From contig CANQQR010000007.1 in NCBI GenBank assembly GCA_947626035.1, positions 1 through 38,701 on the forward strand: a DNA stretch of 38,701 nucleotides. The letters run 5' to 3'. The notes under the pieces were generated by a model, which did not search any database, had not been told where the DNA came from, and saw only the letters and a program-made list of their open reading frames with translations. Below are positions 1-24,457 of this stretch, piece after piece. The DNA comes from an uncultured Bacilli bacterium (GTDB taxonomy: Bacteria > Bacillota_I > Bacilli_A > RF39 > UBA660). The position numbers and the translations under genes were made by a program. Each line of letters opens with the position of its first letter. Within the stretch, counting starts at the first letter, position 1.

Positions 1-1703
1 GGAGGTGTTTCTGAAGTTGTAGTTGCTATACCTATGTATTTTGTATCTTCGGTAGGTATATCTACCATCGGACTTCCAGTTTCATTTACTGAATATTTAA
101 CATGTAAATATGTAGACTGACCATTTTCCCCAGGTGGTCCTTGTAATCCTTGTGCACCATCTTTACCGTCTTCTCCCTTAGCTCCATCTTCTCCTTTTTG
201 AACTAAAGTAATTATTACTTTCTTTTGTAATGTATATTTACCTGACTCATCACTATATTCAAAAGTAAGAACTAACTCGTTAGAAATACTAGGTATAGCT
301 ATAGAATTATCAGTTGACACTTTGATATCATTTTCTGTTGTTTCTATTGTTAAGCCATCTATTTGTTCTTTTAATTTAGGTGTAACAAATACTTGCTTAC
401 CTTTAAAATAAGAATAGTGATTAATTAAAAAATCCTTTGTTTCCAAAGGAATATACCCTTTACAAGGTATAGTTAAATTATATACATCTAAATCTGTACT
501 AAATAAATCTATACTTTCTGATAGTTCTTTAACAGAATTTTCAGTATTAGTAACACTTTCTTTTATACCGTCAACTGTAGTTTCAACCTCTGTCATTTTT
601 TCTGTAGTTTCATCAACTTGTTTTACCAAAGCGTCTATTGTTTGATTTTGCTTATCAACGATTATATAAGCTTCATTTATTCTTCTATCGGTTGTGTCTA
701 AAGCAGAATAATTTGGTACACTTTCTTCTGGTTTCTCAGTATAAATTGACTCTTGATAGCCATCAGTAAATTTTTCTTCATTATTAAAAACATATGAATT
801 ATAAATTTTTTCGCCAGTACTAATCTCTATTTGGTCTAACGGATTAAATCCACCATAACCTATTAATTCTAAATCAAAGATATCATATTCTATTCCATAA
901 AGTGCATCATATATTTCTTGTAAATAATCCACTCTATTATTATCATTCATTAGTTGATTATCTAATATTTTAAATTCATTCCATTCAGTTAAAGACTCAT
1001 CTCTTTTGTATATAGAATCACTTTCTCCACTTCTTGATAAAATTATGGAATTAATTGGACCAAAGTGTTCTCCTAAAGAAATATTTTGATTTTTCAAAAT
1101 ATCATCATCTATTTTTATTGGAGAAGTTCCTAAAATACATTTTTTTATTTCATTATCTTCTAGTTCAAATAAAGTTGCTGTTGCTTGTCCTATATCTTCA
1201 AAAACACTTCTATAAGTATAATCAATTCCATTATAGATATCTCCTAACATTATTCTTTCTCCATTGGGTAAAGTCTTTATGTTTGTGGTAAATCCACACT
1301 TAGTAACCAATGCTATAAAAAAATTGTACACAGTAGTAGGAAATTCAATTTCTAGTGGTTCATAAGGAACCATGGTTTTAATAAATCTATCATATAATTC
1401 ATATGAATAAGTTTTAGTATCAGCATTATATGTCGGATTTTCTTTAAAATAATAGGGTCCTATAGTTTTTGTAGCGCTATCATTTCCATAGCTAACTGTA
1501 TTTTCAAAATAGATTTCTGTATTAGGTATTAATTCTTTTATTTCTAAATTTAATCCCCTCATAACTGTTCCAATTAATGAAGAATTAAAAAAAGGAGATG
1601 CTGTAATATCTTCTGTTATTTCTTTTTTGGTATCAGATACAAAATAATATATTTTTGTAGATAATCTTTTACCTGCTTTTTGCATTAAAACATTATAATC
1701 CTT
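1..1703 (-). CDS. Phage tail protein (endopeptidase-tail type), 3' end cut by window, AAG start
   Basis: An open frame of 567 codons runs off the left edge. The N-terminal half resembles the prophage tail / minor structural protein family that follows the distal tail protein in siphoviruses. A helical stretch of T/E/K-rich repeats follows (about 530-700), then eight collagen-like G-X-Y triplets (about 122-195, reading GED GAK GED GKD...). The Shine-Dalgarno AAAAGGAG lies 9 nt before an AAG at 1701-1703 that overlaps the upstream stop by one base (TAAAG). In this frame a TGA stands three codons before that AAG, with only TAT and GTA between. The first ATG (1683-1685) is six codons inside and has no good Shine-Dalgarno sequence. 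Translation from AAG gives x-DYNVLMQKAGKRL. Role: baseplate or host-contact part of the tail (inference from position). Confidence 0.8.
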
Positions 1704-2066: not shown

Positions 2067-4403
2067 TTAAAAACCTCCATTTCTTGCAAAATTTTTATTA
2101 TTTCTTATTGCTTCTAACCTTTTATTTAATACTCTTCCGTCTATAGTGTTTGTTAAATCTATATTTAAAGTTATCCACTTTCCAATTTCTTCGCCTAACC
2201 TTCTCATGGTATCTTCATTTGTAAGTGGTAAAACGCCCTCTGCTCCTTTTTCTCCAGCAATAGCGCCACCTATATTAACGCCTGTTTTTGGAACATCTAC
2301 AATACCACCGGTTGCAAGTCTAGGTACAAATCTTTCAATAGTTACCTTTGGAAGTTTTGGTATGTCTACAAAAGGTATTTTATTAACAACTTTAAGAAGG
2401 TCATTTATTGCCCCTATAATCAATGTGTTTATTAAGTATTCAATTCCTGATATCAAGAAATTAATTAATTTAGTAACTGCTTGAATAGCATTATCTACAA
2501 AATTGTTGATTGCTGGTCCTAGTTGATTTATAAAATTAATAATAGATTGTAAAACGCTATCTACTAACGATTTAGCTGTGTTCATTATTTTTACAATAGT
2601 ATCTCCAACGGTTTCTATAACATTAGAAATTCCAGTGAAAATTTTTGTGAACAAACTACCGATTGAATTTACAATTGGAGGTAAATTTTCTCCTAGTGCA
2701 TTAATAATTTTATCAATACCGTCATAAATAGTATTTAATAATTTTATTACAAATGGACCTATATCATTTATAAATTTAGAGCATGCGTCTAAGATTGTTG
2801 GTAATGTATTTGCCACGACTAAAAGTATTGCTGATATTGAAGCCACTAATACTGCTAATCCGCCCATTGCTAATGGGGTTTGTAACAATTGTGCCGCTAA
2901 AGTTAAGGCTCCTATCAATGCAATTAATGATTTTACAACGTCTCCTAACATCGTTCCAACGTCGCCGACTTCTAATCCTGTTTTGCCCATTGTTTTTAAT
3001 AGTTCATTAACCAATAAAATAATCGCAGCAAATCCTGCAAATATTACAGCGGCTCCGGCTATACTTTGCCAGCTTGGTTCCATTAATGACATTACACCTA
3101 GTAATACTATAAATGCACCAGCTAACTCTCCTAATATTATGCCTAGTAATCCAGCGACTTCTCCTAAAGTCATACCACTTTTGCTAAACGATTCTATTAA
3201 GCCTGTTATAGATTCTATAACTAAAGCTATACCACCTAATATTGCGATTGCTTCTGTTGCTTTACCTAAAGCATCGAAAAATCCAGTGAAATCTACTGTA
3301 GCACCACTGGTAGCTTTACCTAAATTTTTTATAAGGTTAATTATGTTTTTCAATATTAAAAATCCTGCTAAAGCACTTACAACTATTAGTATTCCACCTT
3401 TTACAGGACCGTATTTTTCAATAATATCTTGAAAGAATTTAATAATAGGTTTACAAAAATCAGCAAAATCTTGTAACCATTTTGGAATTTCTATATCATC
3501 TATTCCGGTTAAATCAATACTAGGTCCAACAGCACTTGCTCCAGCACTTTCGCTTGAACTATTATCTTCTAATTTGTTTATTTCGTCCCAGCCTGCTAGA
3601 GTTTTATCTGCGTCTTTTATATTACTAGCAATACCAGCAGAAGATTTTTTCATGTCTTGAAATTGTTTAGCACTGACGAATAAATCGTTACCAAACCATG
3701 CTTTTGCAAGATAATTGATATATGAAAGTAATGTAGCTACTAAGCTTATTATTTTTTCAATTATAGGTTCTAAAACTTTAGCTAGCGCATACATAATATA
3801 TTCAATATTGCTTGCCATTTCTTCATTATATTGCGTTAGTGTACTCATTGCTCTTCTTACAAGTGTGTATGCCGACCTAATACCAAAAATAGCTAATGTC
3901 CATTTTCCAACTTTCGAAATTATATTTGTTAAACTTTTTTCAGTCTTTGGAAGTTCATTATTAGCTGTATTAGATAACTTTTTATTCATTTCGTCTATGG
4001 ATTTATTTATATTACCTTGTTTTGTTTGATTCTTTGATAATTGATTTTCAATTTTTTCCAATTGATATTCTGCTTTTGAAATAGAAGTTTCCATCTTTAA
4101 ACCTAAATTAGAAATTTGGTTGTCATATTTAGTATTTATTTTTAATTCTTTTGTACTATCGATATTGCCCCATGAATTAGTATTAGCTTTTATTTCTAAA
4201 TTTCTTTGTCTATTTATTTCGTCTACTTTTCTTTTATATTCTGCATCATCTAAATTTAATTTAGCTTCTATTTCTAATTTTTTATTACTTAATTTTGTTT
4301 CTTCTTTTTTTAGTCCTTTCATTTCGCTTTCAAGCTCTTTTAGTTTTTTGATTGCATCTTTTGTTTGTGCTTTAGTATTTATATATAAATGTCCATCTTC
4401 CTT
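2067..4403 (-). CDS. Tail tape measure protein, AAG start
   Basis: The product has 778 residues counted from AAG at 4401-4403. It sets tail length and spans the tail tube. Long amphipathic helices fill the first 150 residues. Several very hydrophobic glycine/alanine/isoleucine-rich segments fill the middle (plus-strand 2500-3400), as is usual for tape measures. The start is decisive: GAGGAGG stands 8 nt before AAG, the codon just before the AAG is an in-frame TAA, and the first in-frame ATG is at 4320-4322, 27 codons downstream with no Shine-Dalgarno sequence. From AAG the protein begins x-EDGHLYINTK, which matches the usual tape-measure opening (M-x-DG-x-L-x-x-x-TK). An ATG three bases after the AAG is in another frame and hits a stop after five codons. 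Confidence 0.9.
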   Translation of the reverse strand, partial: KEDGHLYINTKAQTKDAIKKLKELESEMKGLKKEETKLSNKKLEIEAKLNLDDAEYKRKVDEINRQRNLEIKANTNSWGNIDSTKELKINTKYDNQISNLGLKMETSISKAEYQLEKIENQLSKNQTKQGNINKSIDEMNKKLSNTANNELPKTEKSLTNIISKVGKWTLAIFGIRSAYTLVRRAMSTLTQYNEEMASNIEYIMYALAKVLEPIIEKIISLVATLLSYINYLAKAWFGNDLFVSAKQFQDMKKSSAGIASNIKDADKTLAGWDEINKLEDNSSSESAGASAVGPSIDLTGIDDIEIPKWLQDFADFCKPIIKFFQDIIEKYGPVKGGILIVVSALAGFLILKNIINLIKNLGKATSGATVDFTGFFDALGKATEAIAILGGIALVIESITGLIESFSKSGMTLGEVAGLLGIILGELAGAFIVLLGVMSLMEPSWQSIAGAAVIFAGFAAIILLVNELLKTMGKTGLEVGDVGTMLGDVVKSLIALIGALTLAAQLLQTPLAMGGLAVLVASISAILLVVANTLPTILDACSKFINDIGPFVIKLLNTIYDGIDKIINALGENLPPIVNSIGSLFTKIFTGISNVIETVGDTIVKIMNTAKSLVDSVLQSIINFINQLGPAINNFVDNAIQAVTKLINFLISGIEYLINTLIIGAINDLLKVVNKIPFVDIPKLPKVTIERFVPRLATGGIVDVPKTGVNIGGAIAGEKGAEGVLPLTNEDTMRRLGEEIGKWITLNIDLTNTIDGRVLNKRLEAIRNNKNFARNGGF

Positions 4404-4408
4404 TTACG

Positions 4409-4969
4409 TCACCTCCTCATTTTCAATTGTTCCTCCCAATATTTATCTAACTCTAATTCTCTTTCAGTTTTTTCTCTCTTTAATTCAACCTGTTTTTTGG
4501 CTTTTTCCCAACGCTCTCTTTCTTTACCTTTTTTACCTGATAATGGTTCTTCTCTTATCATACGCACTCTATTTAAAATACTATTTTCAGTTAATCCTTT
4601 TAACAAGTCGTAAAAGCACCACCAATGCATTTCAACTTTATCTAAATTTATGCCATAATCACTCATGAAACTTGCTTTAATGTAACCCTCATCTTGTTTA
4701 AAATTCATTGATGGTTCTTCATTATCTGTACTTTCATTATCTTTTCCACACTGTAAATATTTAACAATAAGTTTTAACATTTCTTCTGAATGCTCTGAAT
4801 TATCTAATCCATCATTACCAAGTAATAAATATATTATAGCTAACGTCTTTTCAAAAGAACCTATTGTAGTGTCTCTATAGATGTCATCACATTTTAATGC
4901 GATTCTAAAATCTGTATTTATTTTTAGTTTTTTTCCAGCGACTTCAATATATTCTGGGTATTTATTCAT
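4409..4969 (-). CDS. Gp15-like tail assembly protein
   Basis: This 186-residue protein resembles the bacteriophage Gp15 family: an N-terminal IEVAGKKLKINTDFRIALKCDD, a central YGINL...MHWWCFYDLLKGL block and a highly charged C-terminal helix. Such proteins lie just before the tape measure and act in tail assembly, probably as the second tail chaperone. It overlaps the previous gene by 8 bp, so translation is likely coupled. The ATG is immediately preceded by TAA AAG, so an AAG start one codon earlier cannot be excluded; the Shine-Dalgarno sequence is weak either way. Confidence 0.75.
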   Translation of the reverse strand: MNKYPEYIEVAGKKLKINTDFRIALKCDDIYRDTTIGSFEKTLAIIYLLLGNDGLDNSEHSEEMLKLIVKYLQCGKDNESTDNEEPSMNFKQDEGYIKASFMSDYGINLDKVEMHWWCFYDLLKGLTENSILNRVRMIREEPLSGKKGKERERWEKAKKQVELKREKTERELELDKYWEEQLKMRR

Positions 4970-5483: not shown

Positions 5484-5517
5484 AAATAAGGGTGGTAACT
5501 TTTTACCACCCTTATTT
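5484..5517 (-). terminator. Rho-independent terminator after major tail protein
   Basis: A perfect 15-bp inverted repeat (AAATAAGGGTGGTAA and its complement) has a 4-nt loop. On the minus strand T-rich sequence follows. The stop codon of the frameshifted Ig extension (5512-5514) is inside the stem. The hairpin divides the abundant tail-tube message from the downstream tail assembly genes. Confidence 0.85.
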
Positions 5518-5883
5518 GCTAGGGCTTAATGTTACCCCTGTTAGTTCTAATACCTTATTAGCTTTATCATTTTTTAGTGTTATAGTTTGAGTATTAGAAT
5601 GTAATTGAACCACTAATATTCCTGTTTCATCTAAAGTTCCTGAACCTTTTGTTGTTGCTTCCGATAATTCCCATTCAACAGTATCTCCTTTAGTAGCTTC
5701 ATCACATTTAATCGCTAAAAAGTTACCTTTAGCATTTTTGCTAAACTTGGGAAAACTTTCAACATATTTAGATGTACCAGTTACTTTAGTATCATTAATT
5801 TCAACTTCTTGTAGTGTACTTACATCTATTCCTAATACTTCGCCCTCTGGTAAAGTTATTGTTACCGTTTTTGAGGGCTCACT
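5512..5883 (-). CDS. Ig-like extension of the major tail protein, reached by +1 frameshift
   Basis: After the TAG of the major tail gene, the frame one base further on stays open for 123 codons. It begins SEPSKTVTITLPEG and ends TGVTLSPSK. It has the alternating beta pattern of a bacterial Ig-like domain. It has no start of its own: a TAA lies in this frame just before the join, and no Shine-Dalgarno sequence is seen. A +1 slip at the proline codon CCC gives a fused protein of about 292 residues. Listeria phage PSA makes longer forms of its capsid and tail proteins by +1 shifting at a CCC before a stop, which is the precedent. Confidence 0.8.
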   Translation of the reverse strand, partial: SEPSKTVTITLPEGEVLGIDVSTLQEVEINDTKVTGTSKYVESFPKFSKNAKGNFLAIKCDEATKGDTVEWELSEATTKGSGTLDETGILVVQLHSNTQTITLKNDKANKVLELTGVTLSPSK

Positions 5884-5890
5884 AGGGTGT
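5882..5890 (-). other. Programmed +1 frameshift site
   Basis: On the minus strand the tail gene ends ACA CCC TAG TGA. Proline tRNA on CCC can slip one base to CCT, after which AGT GAG CCC is read in the Ig-like frame. A slow stop codon right after CCC is the arrangement known from phage PSA. The shift itself is an inference from sequence. Confidence 0.75.
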
Positions 5891-6391
5891 TACATCAGCG
5901 GTAAATGTAGGTACACCCTCTACAAGTGTAACAGTTCCGTTAATTGGGTCTCCGTTTACATTAATCTTAAATCCGATTGTTGGTGTTGCCCCGCCGTCAC
6001 CACCATATGAACTAATACTAATCGAACAGTCAAATTTTTGTGCTTTAAACTTTGTCTCCTCTGTTACCATATATTTATCTACTAAAAGTACTGTAGTTTC
6101 AGCATCAGTTCCTGTAGCTAACTTTAATCTCAAATCATTTATAAAATCATAAATAGGGTCTCCAAAAATACATTTCATTTCTCCGTCTAATGAAACAGCA
6201 TAACTATCTATAGTAGTTGTTGCATTGTCATGAATAATGTAAGTTTCACTTGTTTCACTAGCTTCGTATGAATATGAACCACTTGTCATACCATTACCAA
6301 CTAAACCCCATTTTTCTACTTCTTTCCCTGGGTCAGTATTTAAAAAAGCCATTATTTCTGTTCTTTTTACAAATCTTGTTTTATTTTCCTT
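5882..6391 (-). CDS. Major tail (tube) protein, AAG start
   Basis: The product has 169 residues from AAG at 6389-6391. It begins x-ENKTRFVKRTEIMAFLNT and carries the GDPI..FI.DLR pattern of phage tube proteins. AAAAGGAGG stands 8 nt before AAG. In this frame a TAA lies two codons before the AAG, so no upstream start exists. The first in-frame ATG (6350-6352) is 13 codons inside and lacks a Shine-Dalgarno sequence. The AAG overlaps the upstream stop by one base (TAAAG), like the common TAATG overlap. The gene ends with ACA CCC TAG, which looks like a +1 shift site leading to an Ig-like extension. Confidence 0.88.
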   Translation of the reverse strand, partial: KENKTRFVKRTEIMAFLNTDPGKEVEKWGLVGNGMTSGSYSYEASETSETYIIHDNATTTIDSYAVSLDGEMKCIFGDPIYDFINDLRLKLATGTDAETTVLLVDKYMVTEETKFKAQKFDCSISISSYGGDGGATPTIGFKINVNGDPINGTVTLVEGVPTFTADVTP

Positions 6392-6813
6392 TATTTATTC
6401 CTCCTTTTAATATAAATAAATTTACAACTTATTCGATAAATTGCTTCATCTGCTTTTGTTGCATAAATATAGCCGTTAGTTTCTGCACTAATGGCTATAG
6501 GGTCTATTCCCTCTATTTTAGGGAAGATTTTATTTTCATTTTTTTCTTCTAACCAATTTCTAAAGTTCTCAAAGAATAGTGAATTATTTATATTGTTCAT
6601 TAATTCTTCATTCCAATAAAATTTAGCATCAAAATTAAATAAGAATTGCATTTCTTTATCGCCATTTAAATAAGTATTTATAACTGGTTTATAACTCGAT
6701 GCTTCATTTACTGAATATGCTTTTACTTTATCTACTAAGTAATTTACATTAATAGATACAAACTCATCTAAATATGGACAATCGCTTATGTACTCTCGTA
6801 TTTTTTCAATCAT
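6391..6813 (-). CDS. Tail terminator-like / minor capsid protein
   Basis: This 140-residue protein sits between the HK97 gp10-like gene and the major tail protein, the position of the tail terminator in siphoviruses. It has the pattern of the small minor capsid family placed there: an N-terminal helix (IEKIREYISDCPYLDEF), a core with NTYLNGDKEMQFLFNFDAKFYW and a basic end. The ATG overlaps the upstream stop as ATGA. GGAG lies 11 nt upstream, a rather long spacing, so termination-coupled restart is likely. Confidence 0.65.
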   Translation of the reverse strand: MIEKIREYISDCPYLDEFVSINVNYLVDKVKAYSVNEASSYKPVINTYLNGDKEMQFLFNFDAKFYWNEELMNNINNSLFFENFRNWLEEKNENKIFPKIEGIDPIAISAETNGYIYATKADEAIYRISCKFIYIKRRNK

Positions 6814-7247
6814 TTACTATCTAGCTCCTTTTGTGCAGCATTAACTATATCGTTAAAATTTTCTGACACTGTTCTTTCTACAAAATGTGCTCCTCTATCA
6901 GGACCACCGCTATAATTTAGTTGTCTATCACTTGGGACTTTTGTTGTATTTGGTCTGCTCCAAAAACCGTAATTTTCATTATAAAATGCGCCTTTTCCTG
7001 TAATAGGGTCAACATATAATGTTCCCTCGTTCATATAGTGTGCATAAGGCGTTTCTACTGTTACAAGTCCGCCCCTTGGATTTCTAGTATTAGCTATTAA
7101 TATTCCACTATCTTGTGGCATCTTCTCTCGCATAAAACGTATAAATTCGCTATCGATTACGTTTTGAACACTTCCGTTTTCATCAAGACCTAATTTTTTC
7201 AAAATCTTTTCTTGACTTGGTAAGAAAGCTTTTATTTCAAATTCCAT
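6810..7247 (-). CDS. HK97 gp10-like / minor capsid 2-like head-tail protein
   Basis: The 145-residue product has the features of the minor capsid 2 / gp10-like families: ...MREKMPQDSGILIANT, then a run ending with YAHYMNEGTLYVDP and a GGPDRGAHFVERTV end. These proteins help join the tail to the head. The ATG lies one base after the upstream TAA, with GGGGA as the ribosome site. Adjacent genes on both sides are head-tail joining proteins. Confidence 0.7.
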   Translation of the reverse strand: MEFEIKAFLPSQEKILKKLGLDENGSVQNVIDSEFIRFMREKMPQDSGILIANTRNPRGGLVTVETPYAHYMNEGTLYVDPITGKGAFYNENYGFWSRPNTTKVPSDRQLNYSGGPDRGAHFVERTVSENFNDIVNAAQKELDSK

Positions 7248-8069: not shown

Positions 8070-9215
8070 TTAGACTGCTTCACTTGCTGAAACAGTTAAG
8101 CTTAATTCCCCGCTACCTGTTTTTTGTTTACTATCAGTAACTTTAATAGTAGCTGAGTATGTTTTTTCAGTCAATTTAGTTTTAACTTTTACGTTTCCGC
8201 TAGTATCAACTTCAAAACTATCTTTATCAGTACCCTCTACTTCATAAGTAAATGGTGCTGTTCCTCCAGTAACACTAACTGTTGCTACTGTTTGTCCAAC
8301 TTCTACTTGTGGACTATCAGTTTTTAAATCTTCTTGTGAATTAGTTACTGTTACTTTTGTTATTTCAGGGTCAACCTTACTCACTTTTTTTTTTACAATA
8401 ACAGCTTTAGTGTTAGTAACAGTATCAGTGTATACCATACGTCCTTGTAATGCACTAGCACCTATATGTTTACCATCACTTAAATTATTGATAGTTGGAT
8501 TTACTTTCCATTCATCAATAGCTTGACACCAGTCAATACCATAGATAATATATTCAGCTTCCTCCTTACCATCGGTTAAGTCTTGAACTATTACATTAAC
8601 ACCGTTTATTTTACCTACTACACCATTACGCGCTAATTCAGCACCGATTTGACTTGATGTATTAGAATATTTTTGGTCTGTTAATAGTAATGTTTCAGTT
8701 TCATAACTAATAGCAACATACATTCTTTCTTTTGGTACACCCATTTTTGCTAATACTGCTATATCTTTTACAATATTAGAATACACGTTTTGCTCTGTAC
8801 AATCTTCTTGTGTACTTGCTGTACCTTTAAGCAATGCTGCTATTGCACTCTTTTCAAGTGTTGATGCTATTACATATGCACCACTTTCTAATCTTTGTGC
8901 TACTAGGTTATCTGGTACAGCTGAAGCTTCGTAACCATCGATTAGTTCATTAATAGCTTTATGATTATCAACTGGAATGTTTAAATACTCAGTTGCACTT
9001 TGACTTAAATCAGTTCCTGATTTTACATCGTAATCACTTATTTTAACGTCCATTTCCCTTTTAGGAACCTTAACAGCACCTGCTGTTGGACGACCCTCAT
9101 AATCTTTACTAAATGTATTTCTTATTTTTAAACTTGGTCTCATTAATTTTACGATAGCGTTAGCATATCTTTCTTGTCTTTCATGAGTACCATTTGCTCC
9201 TATTGCGTTTGCCTT
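8070..9215 (-). CDS. Major capsid protein with C-terminal Ig-like domain, AAG start
   Basis: From AAG at 9213-9215 the product has 381 residues and begins x-ANAIGANGTHERQERYANAI. Residues up to about 278 form the HK97-fold-like shell protein. A KVSKVDPE linker and an Ig-like domain of about 90 residues follow. AAAGGAG lies 10 nt before AAG. A GTG at 9222-9224 is in frame, but it lies one base after the ribosome site, far too close for use. In related phages capsid proteins often begin M-A-N, which fits translation from this AAG (recollection). A run of ten A residues lies at the shell/Ig join. Confidence 0.88.
   Translation of the reverse strand, partial: KANAIGANGTHERQERYANAIVKLMRPSLKIRNTFSKDYEGRPTAGAVKVPKREMDVKISDYDVKSGTDLSQSATEYLNIPVDNHKAINELIDGYEASAVPDNLVAQRLESGAYVIASTLEKSAIAALLKGTASTQEDCTEQNVYSNIVKDIAVLAKMGVPKERMYVAISYETETLLLTDQKYSNTSSQIGAELARNGVVGKINGVNVIVQDLTDGKEEAEYIIYGIDWCQAIDEWKVNPTINNLSDGKHIGASALQGRMVYTDTVTNTKAVIVKKKVSKVDPEITKVTVTNSQEDLKTDSPQVEVGQTVATVSVTGGTAPFTYEVEGTDKDSFEVDTSGNVKVKTKLTEKTYSATIKVTDSKQKTGSGELSLTVSASEAV
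8385..8394 (-). other. A10 run at the capsid/Ig-domain join
   Basis: The mRNA reads GT followed by ten A residues and GTGAGTAAG. In frame 0 the Ig-like domain is read. A shift of -1 reads AGT GAG TAA and stops; a shift of +1 gives TGA at once. Either shift would make a capsid protein without the Ig domain. Whether slippage occurs is unknown. Confidence 0.45.
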
Positions 9216-12023: not shown

Positions 12024-13448
12024 CTACTCTGTCATATCAAATTCACTTCCATCAGTTATTGTTTGATTTTGGATTTCTTCATTCATTTTAGTAGCAAATT
12101 CTTGTGCTTCCTCGTCAGTCATTTTATAAACCCTTTTATAATATTCTGCTTTACTAATTAATTTAGAATTGTATTCACTCATAGCTTGTTGTCTTATCTT
12201 GTCAGTGTCTTCTATAATACTGTCGTCTGGATTAATACTTACTGTTTTATATTTTATATTTTCCATCTCACATACAGTTTTTATTAACTCTTCTAAACAA
12301 TTGTAAATAGGGTTTTGATGATGTACTTTAGTTCTATATGTATCAGAATTAACGCTTATTACTTCTGTAGCGGTCTTAACGCTAGTTCCATCAAATTTAT
12401 AATAATTACTTCCTAATCCTACATTAGAACTTAAATAATTGAGTTCCGCGTTTATTGCGTCCACGTGTTCTTTTGTTCTTAACTCAAAATTAATGTCTTT
12501 AATTCCGTCTTGTTCCAAACCATTTACCGCTACATATACTTCGTCGTTCATATCAAAATATGATATAACTTGTTGGTTACCGTTTTTATCTACCCCAGTA
12601 ACTTGTCCTTTTATCGCAGCACGTGGAACTATGATTCTTCTTTTTCCTGTAATAAATTCTCTATCAAAACTATCATACTTAGTATCTATCGCTTTAAACT
12701 TGTCAAGTTGATTTGCTAGAACAGAAATACCAAAAGGACTTCCTGTATCTAAATTATTTGCAATAGGTAACTTCCATACTTGAAATCTTGGACAAGAAGT
12801 GGGTATTATTTCAGTTTCTTCGACATTTGGAAACTTTGTTTTAAAATCAATATTCTTTCCTAATTCAGTATCTGTAGTTGAACAATATAATTCATTTGTT
12901 TTTCTATATTCTCCGTTTTCATATTCATGATAAGTTAGTAATGTATAGTATTTTTTATCTTCAATAGTTCTACTAATAGTTACAATACCATTTATGTAAT
13001 TATTAGTATATTTGTATGGTAAAACAACATCTCCATCAATATAATCAATAATTGTTTTTTCGTCTTTTTTATATTCAACTGTAACCATAGTACCTAAAGC
13101 ATATAACTTTTCTATAAACATTGGAAAATTTATTTGAAAATCATTTTCTTTACTATTTAAAACCTTTAACAATTGTTTTGTAGCATTAGGTTTATCTAAT
13201 CTTAATTCTACTTTTTCACTATAAATTAATTTTGAAAAATCTTCACAAAGTTTTTTTGCCATGTTTAAAGTTTTGCGTTCTTTCGTTTCTGTTTTTCCGT
13301 CTACTGTCTTAACATTATAAAAATGAAACTTGTTAACATTACCTCGATACCACTGTTTCCAAATTGCCATAAAATCGTAAATATCTCCAATGACAACATT
13401 AACATTTTTCTTACTTAGTACTTCTTGAATATTATTGTATAATGTCTT
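12024..13448 (-). CDS. Portal protein (SPP1-like), AAG start
   Basis: From AAG at 13446-13448 the product has 474 residues. It begins x-TLYNNIQEVLSKKNVNVV, followed by IAIWKQWYRGN-like sequence, the usual N-terminal pattern of this portal family (a helix, then W-x-x-WY-x-G). AAAGGAG lies 9 nt before AAG. The terL stop TGA is in the same frame three codons before it, so no standard start is possible upstream. The first ATG (13368-13370) lies 26 codons inside, has no Shine-Dalgarno sequence and would leave an 84-bp gap after terL. The AAG start reduces the gap to 6 bp. Confidence 0.9.
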   Translation of the reverse strand, partial: KTLYNNIQEVLSKKNVNVVIGDIYDFMAIWKQWYRGNVNKFHFYNVKTVDGKTETKERKTLNMAKKLCEDFSKLIYSEKVELRLDKPNATKQLLKVLNSKENDFQINFPMFIEKLYALGTMVTVEYKKDEKTIIDYIDGDVVLPYKYTNNYINGIVTISRTIEDKKYYTLLTYHEYENGEYRKTNELYCSTTDTELGKNIDFKTKFPNVEETEIIPTSCPRFQVWKLPIANNLDTGSPFGISVLANQLDKFKAIDTKYDSFDREFITGKRRIIVPRAAIKGQVTGVDKNGNQQVISYFDMNDEVYVAVNGLEQDGIKDINFELRTKEHVDAINAELNYLSSNVGLGSNYYKFDGTSVKTATEVISVNSDTYRTKVHHQNPIYNCLEELIKTVCEMENIKYKTVSINPDDSIIEDTDKIRQQAMSEYNSKLISKAEYYKRVYKMTDEEAQEFATKMNEEIQNQTITDGSEFDMTE

Positions 13449-14813: not shown

Positions 14814-15194
14814 TTACTCATCACCATTTGGCAAATCATTTATTATAGTTACTCTATTTTCAACAGTAGTATCAATAGACTGTTTATCTTGCCAACCGAA
14901 ATTATTTTTTAAATTGAAAATAACCCCAGTAGCAATACCACTTTTAAATAAGCAACATTCGACAAATTCCTGTACTCTTTCTTTAGCTTTTTTTATAGTG
15001 TGGCTAAATTCATCTTCATAATCTTGCTCATACCTTAATAGACTTTTTCGGTCCATGTCTAAATATAAAGCTAGTCCAGTGATAGTATAAGGTCTTTTTT
15101 TCTTGTCGCAAAATTCAAAATACTCATCGATTAATTGTTGCAATTCATCTACCGTTTTGTATTTTCTCGGTCTTCCAACTTTTTTATCTTCCTT
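14814..15194 (-). CDS. terS: Terminase small subunit, AAG start
   Basis: The 126-residue product has KVGRPRKYKTVDELQQLIDEYF, then a helix-turn-helix (ITGLALYLDMDRKSLLRYE) and a helical oligomerisation region, as in small terminases that choose the packaging site. AAGGTGG lies 5 nt before AAG (15192-15194). A GTG at 15201-15203 is in frame but is itself part of that ribosome site. Only weak AAAG lies before it, so GTG is less likely but not excluded. The gene begins 22 bp after the CCA end of the initiator-like tRNA, so tRNA processing would trim its mRNA leader. Confidence 0.85.
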   Translation of the reverse strand, partial: KEDKKVGRPRKYKTVDELQQLIDEYFEFCDKKKRPYTITGLALYLDMDRKSLLRYEQDYEDEFSHTIKKAKERVQEFVECCLFKSGIATGVIFNLKNNFGWQDKQSIDTTVENRVTIINDLPNGDE

Positions 15195-15216: not shown

Positions 15217-15290
15217 TGGTTGCAGAGACTGGAATTGAACCAGTATCGCTGGCTAAAGAGACCAGTAAGCTACCATTGCTCCACTCTGCG
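15217..15290 (-). tRNA. Initiator-like tRNA with anticodon CUU (predicted to read AAG start codons)
   Basis: The 74-nt cloverleaf is complete. The acceptor is CGCAGAG/CTCTGCA, with C1 x A72 unpaired and the other six pairs intact, then A73 and encoded CCA. The D stem is GAGC/GCTT, giving A11:U24. The anticodon stem CTGGT/GCCAG has G29:C41, G30:C40 and U31.G39. The loop is CTCTTTA, so the anticodon is C34-U35-U36 with U37. The variable loop has 4 nt and the T arm is ACTGG-TTCAATT-CCAGT. C1 x A72 and A11:U24 are marks of bacterial initiator tRNA, and the acceptor and D arm closely match tRNA-fMet. Elongator tRNA-Lys would have a paired 1:72 and usually pyrimidine11:purine24. U35, U36 and A73 suggest charging by lysyl-tRNA synthetase (inference). 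U37 rules out the usual t6A37. Confidence 0.9.
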
Positions 15291-15624: not shown

Positions 15625-16149
15625 TTAACACCCCAATTCATTCAGACTGTCATTTGCAAAGAATAATTTACCTAAATAATTAATAATTCTATCTTTGTTT
15701 CTGGTAACAGTTTTGACATCGCAATTAAAATATTCTGCTATCTCTTCTCTTGTTTTTCCATCTCTATATTTCAAATTAATTAATTCATAAAATTTATCAG
15801 TATTTAATGTTTGAATAATATCGTTAGCCCATTTTAATTGTGTATCTATAATATAATTTCTTTGTTTCAATTTGCTTATTTCTCTTTTTATTATATCATT
15901 TTCATCTTCTTTAGGTGGTACATTATCAGGTATTATATGAATCGCGCTTTGTTTCTTTGATATTCCATATTTTTCTAAATCTTTAATTTTTCTATTATTA
16001 TGATTAATAGCTTTCTTTAAATCAGGTAATAAATAAAGTAATTGTTCCGTGCGCTTGAATATACTTCTCTTTTCTTTTATTTCAAATCCGTTTTTTCTTA
16101 AAATTTCAAATACATTGTTACTACTTATTTTTATTACTTCTTCCATCAT
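15625..16149 (-). CDS. ArpU/sigma-like late transcription regulator
   Basis: The 174-residue protein ends with a sigma region 4-like helix-turn-helix (NLKYRDGKTREEIAEYFNCDVKTVTRNKDRIINYLG, quoted in parts: the HTH core is EEIAEYFNCDVKTVTRNK). The N-terminal half is basic and helical. Proteins of this kind end the early region in Firmicute phages, just before terS, and switch on late genes. A promoter-like site lies directly downstream. The ATG overlaps the upstream stop (ATGATG) and has AAAGGG upstream. Confidence 0.75.
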   Translation of the reverse strand: MMEEVIKISSNNVFEILRKNGFEIKEKRSIFKRTEQLLYLLPDLKKAINHNNRKIKDLEKYGISKKQSAIHIIPDNVPPKEDENDIIKREISKLKQRNYIIDTQLKWANDIIQTLNTDKFYELINLKYRDGKTREEIAEYFNCDVKTVTRNKDRIINYLGKLFFANDSLNELGC

Positions 16150-16439
16150 AGTATCACACCCTTTTTTTCTTTCATTAATTCGTAAAGCCAGTTACTTAAC
16201 TTTACCCAACTGTCATAATCACATTTATCATCTGTAATCATTTTATTATTCCTGTCTTCCAAATATTGACTAATGTCACGTAACATAACTGTACATACCC
16301 TTTGACTTATCAAATCTTTATTTTTCATGATAAATTCTGGAACTTCAAGTGTTACATAAGTTTTTCTACCTAAAGCATATCTTAAAGCCATTATCATTAC
16401 ATTACCAAAATCCTCTGCATCACTATTTACTTTAATCAT
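16146..16439 (-). CDS. Conserved-looking early phage protein, unknown function
   Basis: The 97-residue product begins MIKVNSDAEDFGNVMIMALRYALGR and has a central LISQRVCTVMLRDISQYLED and a C-terminal DYDSWVKLSNWLYELM. I have a recollection of similar small proteins beside ArpU-like regulators, but no function. AAAGGAG lies 8 nt before ATG. It overlaps the regulator gene by 4 bp, so the two are likely expressed together. Confidence 0.65.
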   Translation of the reverse strand: MIKVNSDAEDFGNVMIMALRYALGRKTYVTLEVPEFIMKNKDLISQRVCTVMLRDISQYLEDRNNKMITDDKCDYDSWVKLSNWLYELMKEKKGVIL

Positions 16440-22487: not shown

Positions 22488-24457
22488 TAACCTCCGTATA
22501 AGTTCTTTTTGCACAAATTGATATAATATGTTAAATCTAATTTTTTCTTATCAAATGTATCTAAGCTATCATTATGAATTATGTTATGTTCACTTGTATT
22601 AGCAATTTTTTGATAACTATCGCCTTTTCGTTTATAAATCCCTCCATATCTTTTATCATTTGTGGCAAAAGCTCTATTTACTTTTTGCGTTTCTATCAAC
22701 CTTTTCTCCCCTGTTTCTCCATACTCATAGTACATTCCTGAATATGTACTACCCATTTTGCATATAATCTGAAATGGAGATAAATCATTATTTTTATAAG
22801 TATCTATGACTGTCTTTTGAACTGGTATATTGTAGATGTAATAATTAACCAGTGCTCTATCTACTATGCTTAATGAGTTTTGTTTAAAGTCTCCTGAATT
22901 AAACTTAGCAAAGCACCCTTTTGCTTCAACATGTCCGTCATTAAATTGTATTGCATAATTATTAACATCTCTTTGTGCTATTTTAGCTATTTTATCTATA
23001 TCAAATGTTAAATTAAATCGTTTTCCAAAGTCATTAACTTTTGTTTCTATTTGTTCATAATTATTTTCATATTTTACTATGATACCATCAGTGTTACTTT
23101 GTATTAATTTGCAGTAAGGCTCTAATTCTAAAATTAACTGTGTTAGAATTAATTGACCATTGATACAAATATTATTAGCCTGTTTGGGGTCATATAGTGG
23201 GTTAAATTCGCTTTTCATTGCCCCAAAGGTACTATTTATCAAAATTTTATAAATTAGCTGTCTTGGGTCTTTTAATGCTTTATATTTGTATCTTGTTTCT
23301 CTTAACTCTTTAAATCTTTCAGGATTTCTACTTGCTGAGCTCATAAAATTGTTGTTTATAATTAAACTCGGATAAAATGCAAACTATCTTACAATTTACC
23401 ATTTTGTAAGGTTGGACTATATCATCTATGCCCACCGCTTCCAATAATGTATCAATAATTATTGTACTTCCTTTCGGAATAGTCTCTACACTTCTTTATA
23501 TTTAATGAAAATATAAATTTAGCACGGGATTGTCCATATATTTGGTGGAGTTCCCCGTTAGCCATATTTTTATATGACACCCTTGATAAGGTTCAATGGG
23601 TTTTAATTTCGCCATTTTGTTAACGAAACATCAATGTGTAAAAAATTTCCAGTACCATTGTAATTTTCTAATGCTCCATGCAAACCCCCGAAAGCATAGA
23701 TATGCGGTACCCCACAAAGATTTAATTTTAATTTACGTTTTTCTATTATTTCATAATCTTCCCCAGTTCTATAATCATATTCAGCTTGTTTATAGAAATC
23801 TTTTACTTCTTTAGGTATTATGTTCCAGTTTATATTAGGGTCATAATCTATATGAAGTCTGTTTGATGGTAATACTATCTTTTCACAATTAAGAACTTTA
23901 GATGCAAGCATCGCTCTAGTTTTTTGTACATCTTGCGCTGGTAGTTTAAATTCTTTTACTATTTCAAACTTTGACTGAAAATAATCTAATCTTTTCAAAA
24001 ATAACATTTCGGTATCTTTAACGTCGTTTTTACAATATTTTATAAGTAATTCTAGTTCTTCTTTAGTACATGGTCTATCTAAGTTAAAGCTAATTGGTGT
24101 TTCAACAATAGACATACCTAAATTGGCTTGGCTAGATTTTAGACCTACCCCTAATGGTAGTTCCTGAATAACATCAAGTGTAATAATATTTAACTTTTGA
24201 TTAGACCTGTTATTGTTTCCTATTAATTTTTTACTTATTTCATATGGGTCATTTCCTAGTAAAATATTTGCTAAAATAACATTGTCGTAATGATAGTTAT
24301 TGAAACCTACAAGAATTGCTTTACTTTCTCGTAATTTATCTATGTAGGTTTCTAACTCTTTTCTATCATTATGTATTACCTTAAAATAATCACTATCTTT
24401 AAATACCATTAACCAGTCATACTTTAATACTTCACAATCGTAAGTGATTATTCTCAT
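22487..24457 (-). CDS. Family B DNA polymerase, two exons joined by a group I intron
   Basis: Exon 1 is 24457-23623 and exon 2 is 23379-22487; joined they give exactly 576 codons (575 residues). The 3'-5' exonuclease has TYDCEV, GFNNYHYDN and YCKNDVKDT. The polymerase has motif A (HIDVSSFYPSLI, formed only by joining the exons), motif B KILINSTFGAM and motif C SNTDGI. The intron falls inside a serine codon of motif A (TCG T/CA). Read without splicing, exon 1 would end with LTKWRN and stop, and exon 2 would appear as a separate gene starting at an internal ATG. ATG at 24455-24457 follows AGGTGG. Confidence 0.9.
23380..23622 (-). ncRNA. Group I self-splicing intron (243 nt, no homing endonuclease)
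   Basis: The minus strand has the conserved core in order: ACGGGGAACTCC, GACAATCCCGTGCTAAATT (Q region), GTGTAGAGACTAT (R) and GATGATATAGTCC (S), where GACTAT pairs with ATAGTC to form P7. Exon end TTTCGT pairs with GCGAAA in the intron to form P1 with the required U.G pair at the splice site. The intron ends in G before CATTTTATCC. Joining at these points restores the polymerase reading frame and motif A. Confidence 0.93.

Follow-up and report, generated by a model that had tools for sequence, protein, structure and literature searches.

A prophage with AAG at the predicted starts of late virion genes and an initiator-like tRNA of matching anticodon

The prophage and its late operon

The window, meaning the whole stretch of 38,701 nucleotides analysed here, is a prophage at the end of a contig, in a fragmented draft assembly of a low-GC host genome of 1.43 Mb. 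The prophage adjoins a tRNA-His gene and an rRNA operon and has a tyrosine-type integrase at its right end; its late genes lie on the minus strand in the order tRNA, terminase small subunit (TerS), terminase large subunit (TerL), portal, minor head, scaffold, capsid, connectors, major tail, tape measure and tail. The features referred to below are listed with their predicted starts and Shine-Dalgarno (SD) energies.

15625..16191, minus strand: ORF 5' of the tRNA, with an ATG start
15217..15290, minus strand: initiator-like tRNA with anticodon CUU, C1:A72 unpaired and CCA encoded, heading the late operon (ARAGORN Lys(ctt); Rfam tRNA, 55 bits)
14814..15194, minus strand: TerS (PHROG terminase small subunit), start AAG at 15194-15192, SD -8.5 kcal/mol versus -3.0 at the best standard codon
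13455..14813, minus strand: TerL, ATG start, a late gene without recoding
12024..13448, minus strand: portal protein (PHROG portal), start AAG at 13448-13446, SD -8.2 kcal/mol
8070..9215, minus strand: major capsid protein, MCP (PHROG major head protein), start AAG at 9215-9213, SD -8.8 kcal/mol
5882..6391, minus strand: major tail protein, MTP (PHROG major tail protein), start AAG at 6391-6389, SD -11.6 kcal/mol
4409..4417, minus strand: SD sequence of the tape measure gene, AGGAGGTGA (direct reading)
4404..4406, minus strand: in-frame TAA immediately 5' of the tape measure AAG (direct reading)
2067..4403, minus strand: tape measure protein, TMP (PHROG tail length tape measure), start AAG at 4403-4401, SD -13.3 kcal/mol
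1..1703, minus strand: next tail gene, which leaves the contig edge, start AAG at 1703-1701, SD -8.2 kcal/mol versus -3.3 at the best standard codon

The ORF upstream of the tRNA is possibly a late-transcription regulator, being ArpU-like by eye only. Directly after the MTP gene, in another frame, lies an ORF (5512-5889, minus strand) with no ATG or TTG and a single late GTG, which is probably an extension of MTP joined to it by programmed frameshifting. A group I intron at 23394-23632 on the minus strand (Rfam RF00028, 44.1 bits, E 3.6e-10, under the gathering score) splits the phage DNA polymerase gene between HIDVS and FYPSLI, and contains no long ORF.

When SD strength was calculated for each late ORF, six late genes of the window (TerS, portal, MCP, MTP, TMP and the next tail gene) were found to have a strong SD before an AAG and no competing ATG, GTG or TTG, while TerL, the minor head and scaffold genes and most connector genes keep an ATG start. 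AAG, and not AAA, serves as the putative start although AAA is 4.7 times commoner among the lysine codons of the window's late genes (AAA:AAG 293:62), as is expected from C34 of the tRNA. Outside the late operon, strong-SD AAG codons were found in 0 of 23 scanned ORFs of the window and in 1 of 114 host ORFs drawn from seven host stretches, the one being a fragment cut by the edge of its region.

At the tape measure gene the minus-strand junction reads ...AAAATGAGGAGG-TGA-CG-TAA-AAG-GAA-GAT-GGA-CAT-TTA-TAT-ATA-AAT-ACT-AAA. The SD is a perfect match, with 8 nt separating GGAGG from the AAG, and the TGA of the upstream gene (4411-4409) ends 5 nt before it, one fewer than the 6 nt given in a preliminary description of this DNA. 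That description had also pointed to a TAA in frame right before the AAG and to the lack of a standard start for 27 codons, and both are indeed found: the TAA occupies 4406-4404, and the first ATG, GTG or TTG in frame is an ATG at codon 27 (4322-4320). Its central claim, that AAG is the true start of TMP, is strongly supported as an inference from sequence, and the same pattern recurs at five further late genes.

The CUU tRNA and its counterparts in related phages

The tRNA gene (CGCAGAGTGGAGCA...GCAACCA) lies ~20 nt before TerS and is called Lys(CUU) by software. It fails the criteria for an elongator tRNA-Lys(CUU), having neither a paired 1:72 nor kinship to the host tRNA-Lys: the closest host tRNA is the initiator tRNA-Met (cat), at 68%, and host tRNA-Lys reach 57-58%. 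In 17 of 17 phage tRNAs compared, pair 1:72 is never Watson-Crick (C:A, C:U or G:A), and the anticodon is CUU, CCU, CGU or CAG, not the CAU of initiators. The three consecutive G:C pairs 29-31:39-41 of bacterial initiators are absent from these 17 sequences, in which the anticodon stem has G30:C40 in 16, U:G or U:A at 31:39 in all and often A:U at 29:41; because this criterion is unmet, we describe the phage tRNA as putatively working as an initiator and stop short of calling it a canonical one.

An alignment of 15 CUU tRNAs folds into a cloverleaf with 97.7% pairing and strong covariation; in the D stem, where bacterial initiators have A11:U24, the pair is A:U in 13 of them and U:A in L010 and L062. 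In roughly half of the CUU tRNAs the body is elongator-like and a mismatched C:A has been added at its end, a hint that the unpaired end is under selection. This second class, recognisable by one additional C at the 5' end and one additional A at the 3' end, was seen in L010, L061-L064, L066, L067, L069, L073, L085, L087, L089, L099 and L100, and has U:A at 11:24 if folded as an elongator. A covariance model of the CUU tRNAs, used to scan the loci, detected one in every AAG locus having upstream DNA; the sole AAG locus without a tRNA (L076) begins inside TerL, and L096, from the same assembly, has it.

Relatives were gathered by TerL from viral and genome contigs, and about 90 portal starts were compared. 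They lie in contigs from gut Bacilli (e.g. Candidatus Onthousia, Coprosoma), and the differing taxon names on some of them may reflect misbinning; among INPHARED isolates only distant portals were found (best about 34% identity), and no cultured carrier. Aligned with the window's portal AAG is, in nearly every relative, an ATG, a GTG or another AAG; in a few distant relatives the start is offset by at least one codon. The codon is AAG in 24 of 24 loci with the CUU tRNA and ATG or GTG in 63 of 63 without it (Fisher p 6e-22, kinship ignored). As the phages are related and share ancestry within lineages, such counts are not counts of independent events. The AAG portals form one supported clade of 25 in which a single ATG row, L060, is nested; the CUU tRNA is gone from L060, whose TerS, portal, capsid, major tail and tape measure genes all begin with ATG. 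The ATG relatives lack the CUU tRNA, and a few have an initiator-like tRNA with anticodon CAU (L060, L083, L090, L140 and L143), in which 1:72 is a paired T:A in L083, L090 and L140; these CAU tRNAs are a possible ancestral state.

The other recoded genes align in a similar manner. The TerS AAG stands at the same place in CUU relatives, the MCP start position reads ATG-GCA/GCT-AAT in L012, L015 and L060, and the MTP start, just 5' of (R)FVKRTEIMAFLN, is ACG in L155-L157 and ATG in L060. The window's TMP, queried directly against viral contigs, gave no relative, and its comparison was made via the neighbouring gene and tape measures from loci fetched otherwise. The aligned starts read GGAGGTGATTAG-ATG-GAT-GGC in L060 and GAGGAGGATTAG-ATG-GAT-GGC in L078, and the codon in the start column is otherwise AGG in L197, GGG in L195 and ACG in L196, L294, L155, L156 and L157. 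The preliminary description had named methionines of homologues at the ATG of 4322 as what would refute an AAG start; none falls there, and the homologue methionine lies at or beside the AAG column. L195 is a CCU phage, and its GGG is possibly read by CCU via first-base wobble, as GTG is by CAU.

A model scan of 291 genomes of the family yielded initiator-like tRNAs with anticodons CCU (G079, G257) and CGU (G206), in prophages of another terminase lineage, whose genes for portal, head, tail and tape measure start with AGG or ACG; their relatives without such a tRNA have ATG. When the strong-SD codons of late ORFs without a normal start were tabulated, the 24 phages with the CUU tRNA had AAG in 85 ORFs and AGG or ACG in none, the CCU phages had AGG in 15 and AAG in 2, and the CGU phage had ACG in 5 and AAG in 1. 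Strong-SD AAG occurred in 5 of 585 ORFs from 62 phages without the CUU tRNA. In 15 CUU phages, none of the 195 ORFs lying upstream of the tRNA had it.

Four anticodons or start codons were forecast before inspection, and all were found. Because the tail genes of L155 start with ACG, a CGU initiator-like tRNA was expected on its contig, and one is located 9 kb upstream, with six genes having an ACG start. Similarly, the seemingly CTG start of the L219 tape measure led us to expect a CAG tRNA, which is present and has an unpaired C1:A72. When 395 genomes of the class were searched by pattern, two further tRNAs emerged, CCU in G249 and CGU in G632 (another bacterial family), the first accompanied by AGG starts (L317) at four ORFs, including an 862-codon tape-measure-like ORF (SD -12.1), and the second by two strong ACG starts (L318).

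Taken across these phages, the predicted start codon complements the anticodon of the phage tRNA (CUU/AAG, CCU/AGG, CGU/ACG and CAG/CTG), and comparison shows that the two change together in several lineages. It is this covariation, together with a matching CUU tRNA that has an initiator-type acceptor end, that is the decisive part of the argument, and it was absent from the preliminary description. As far as seen, ACG in L294 (CGU) and CTG in L219 (CAG) are confined to the tape measure; L294 had been considered a counter-example, with a CGU tRNA and ATG genes, and was dropped as such when its tape measure was found to start with ACG. CCU initiator-like tRNAs also lie upstream of ATG packaging genes in L205 (6259-6335) and L208 (2162-2238), on contigs that end before the virion genes. 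In L028, the SD of a gene for a single-strand-binding-like protein (6789-7229) points to ATT, comparable to the rare starts of infC type.

An altered genetic code of the host was ruled out. Besides the host ORFs, whose only strong-SD AAG is the edge artefact, prophages with ATG (L078) and ACG (L196) starts share one host genome, and the host code is therefore unchanged.

Proposed mechanism and alternative readings

We propose, with a probability of roughly 0.9, that the phage has an initiator-type tRNA whose altered anticodon lets its late virion genes use a private start codon, a reading that rests on comparison of genomes, without protein or reporter data. The prophage would encode its own initiator-type tRNA, with CUU replacing CAU, and this tRNA would take an AAG 8-10 nt past a strong SD as the start of TerS, portal, MCP, MTP, TMP and the next tail gene. 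Genes of the host and early genes of the phage keep ATG, GTG or TTG. Because the tRNA gene lies directly upstream of TerS and heads the late genes, we infer that the late transcript probably provides the tRNA needed by its own main messages. We further infer that the tRNA receives a formyl group and occupies the P site as fMet-tRNA does, entering as an initiator. IF3 is reported to demand Watson-Crick pairs only at codon positions 1 and 2 (PMC10158994), and an anticodon-matched tRNA would supply them. As to the benefit, we can only guess at late-gene gating or at independence from the host initiator tRNA, for instance under cleavage by defence nucleases; the host initiator tRNA is a target of VapC nucleases (PMC10264068).

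The first residue is less certain. We lean towards charging with lysine, which is inferred: U35, U36 and A73 favour lysine, and a human initiator tRNA given UUU acquires lysine identity (PMC9976931). It is possible that methionine is still loaded onto the altered tRNA and that only the codon changes, given that each anticodon is one base from CAU and keeps C34, a listed bacterial methionine determinant. However, bacterial methionine identity draws on C34, A35 and U36, of which A35 or U36 is altered in every case, and the human UUU result also points away from methionine, which leaves this variant of our proposal the less likely one.

A reading without a phage initiator is that initiation at AAG relies on the host initiator tRNA or on translational coupling from the upstream gene, the CUU tRNA being an unrelated lysine elongator. 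Elongator tRNAs are common in phages, and the upstream TGA, only 5 nt off, favours re-initiation at TMP. Against this reading, the AAG starts of MCP, MTP and portal lie in varied contexts and AAA is never preferred; moreover, the start codon tracks the phage anticodon in every lineage, and the unpaired 1:72 and the closeness to the host initiator do not suit an elongator. We therefore regard this reading as improbable.

Even less can be said for a start of TMP at the in-frame ATG of 4322, or for its translation by readthrough or frameshift from the upstream gene. Reading through the in-frame TAA is conceivable, but the SD energy at ATG 4322 is -2.1 kcal/mol against -13.3 at the AAG, the starts of homologues sit in the AAG column, and the 27 codons encode conserved protein sequence. 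Nor would downstream starts serve elsewhere, as capsid and major tail of L102 and portal and capsid of L312 have no standard start in the scanned part of the ORF; the downstream start was rejected. Finally, loss of an ATG by point mutation, prophage decay or sequencing error, for which speak the single T-to-A change involved and the fragmented draft assembly of the host, is scarcely credible and is refuted by recurrence and by the anticodon match, since six genes of the window are affected, the same codon is found in the same genes on independent contigs of two collections, and other lineages have AGG, ACG or CTG fitting another anticodon.

Beyond the phage-encoded initiator itself, we consider it only slightly better than an even chance that the full picture holds, namely that several lineages independently evolved private initiators changed by one base (CUU, CCU, CGU and CAG), recoded virion starts and a first residue other than methionine, with proteins made only with the phage initiator, as a natural orthogonal initiation system. 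Few parts of the genetic code are as conserved as the start codon, and if the proposal is true, initiation can be reassigned in nature. It would then explain why, in many gut phages, major virion genes have starts that are missing or wrongly called, and gene finders restricted to ATG, GTG and TTG would overlook or truncate the proteins concerned; it would also offer a source of ready-made orthogonal initiators and make late-gene gating or defence shielding via an initiator tRNA testable.

Comparison with known systems

In the literature on start codons, initiator tRNAs and stop-codon recoding, we found neither a natural AAG, AGG or ACG start system nor a phage initiator with an altered anticodon; subscription papers and preprints lay mostly outside this coverage, which does not prove that none exists. 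Stop-codon recoding by suppressor tRNAs of phages, for instance in some crAss-like phages, likewise matches a phage tRNA of new anticodon to the genes that need it, possibly with late timing. There, however, an elongator acts at internal stop codons, whereas here an initiator-like tRNA would act at the start codon. The rare GTG, TTG and ATT starts are also non-ATG codons used with a Shine-Dalgarno sequence, but they are read as near-cognates by the ordinary CAU initiator, while AAG, AGG and ACG mismatch CAU at the middle base.

Phage tRNAs that evade anticodon nucleases also have a changed anticodon loop, and host nucleases such as VapC can cleave the initiator tRNA, but those phage tRNAs retain their codon, whereas the present case alters both the codon and the start of the message; the paper describing them notes that phages tend not to encode tRNA-fMet, the target of VapC (PMC10264068). 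There is also a likeness in design to engineered initiator tRNAs for amber codons or non-canonical amino acids (Varshney, RajBhandary, as cited in PMC8576571; PMC2268962; PMC13232202), in which an altered anticodon is likewise matched to a non-AUG start and which, like the putative phage initiator, are meant for initiation rather than elongation. While those are laboratory-made, the phage case is natural, and appears to involve sense codons, a whole set of virion genes and several evolved anticodons.
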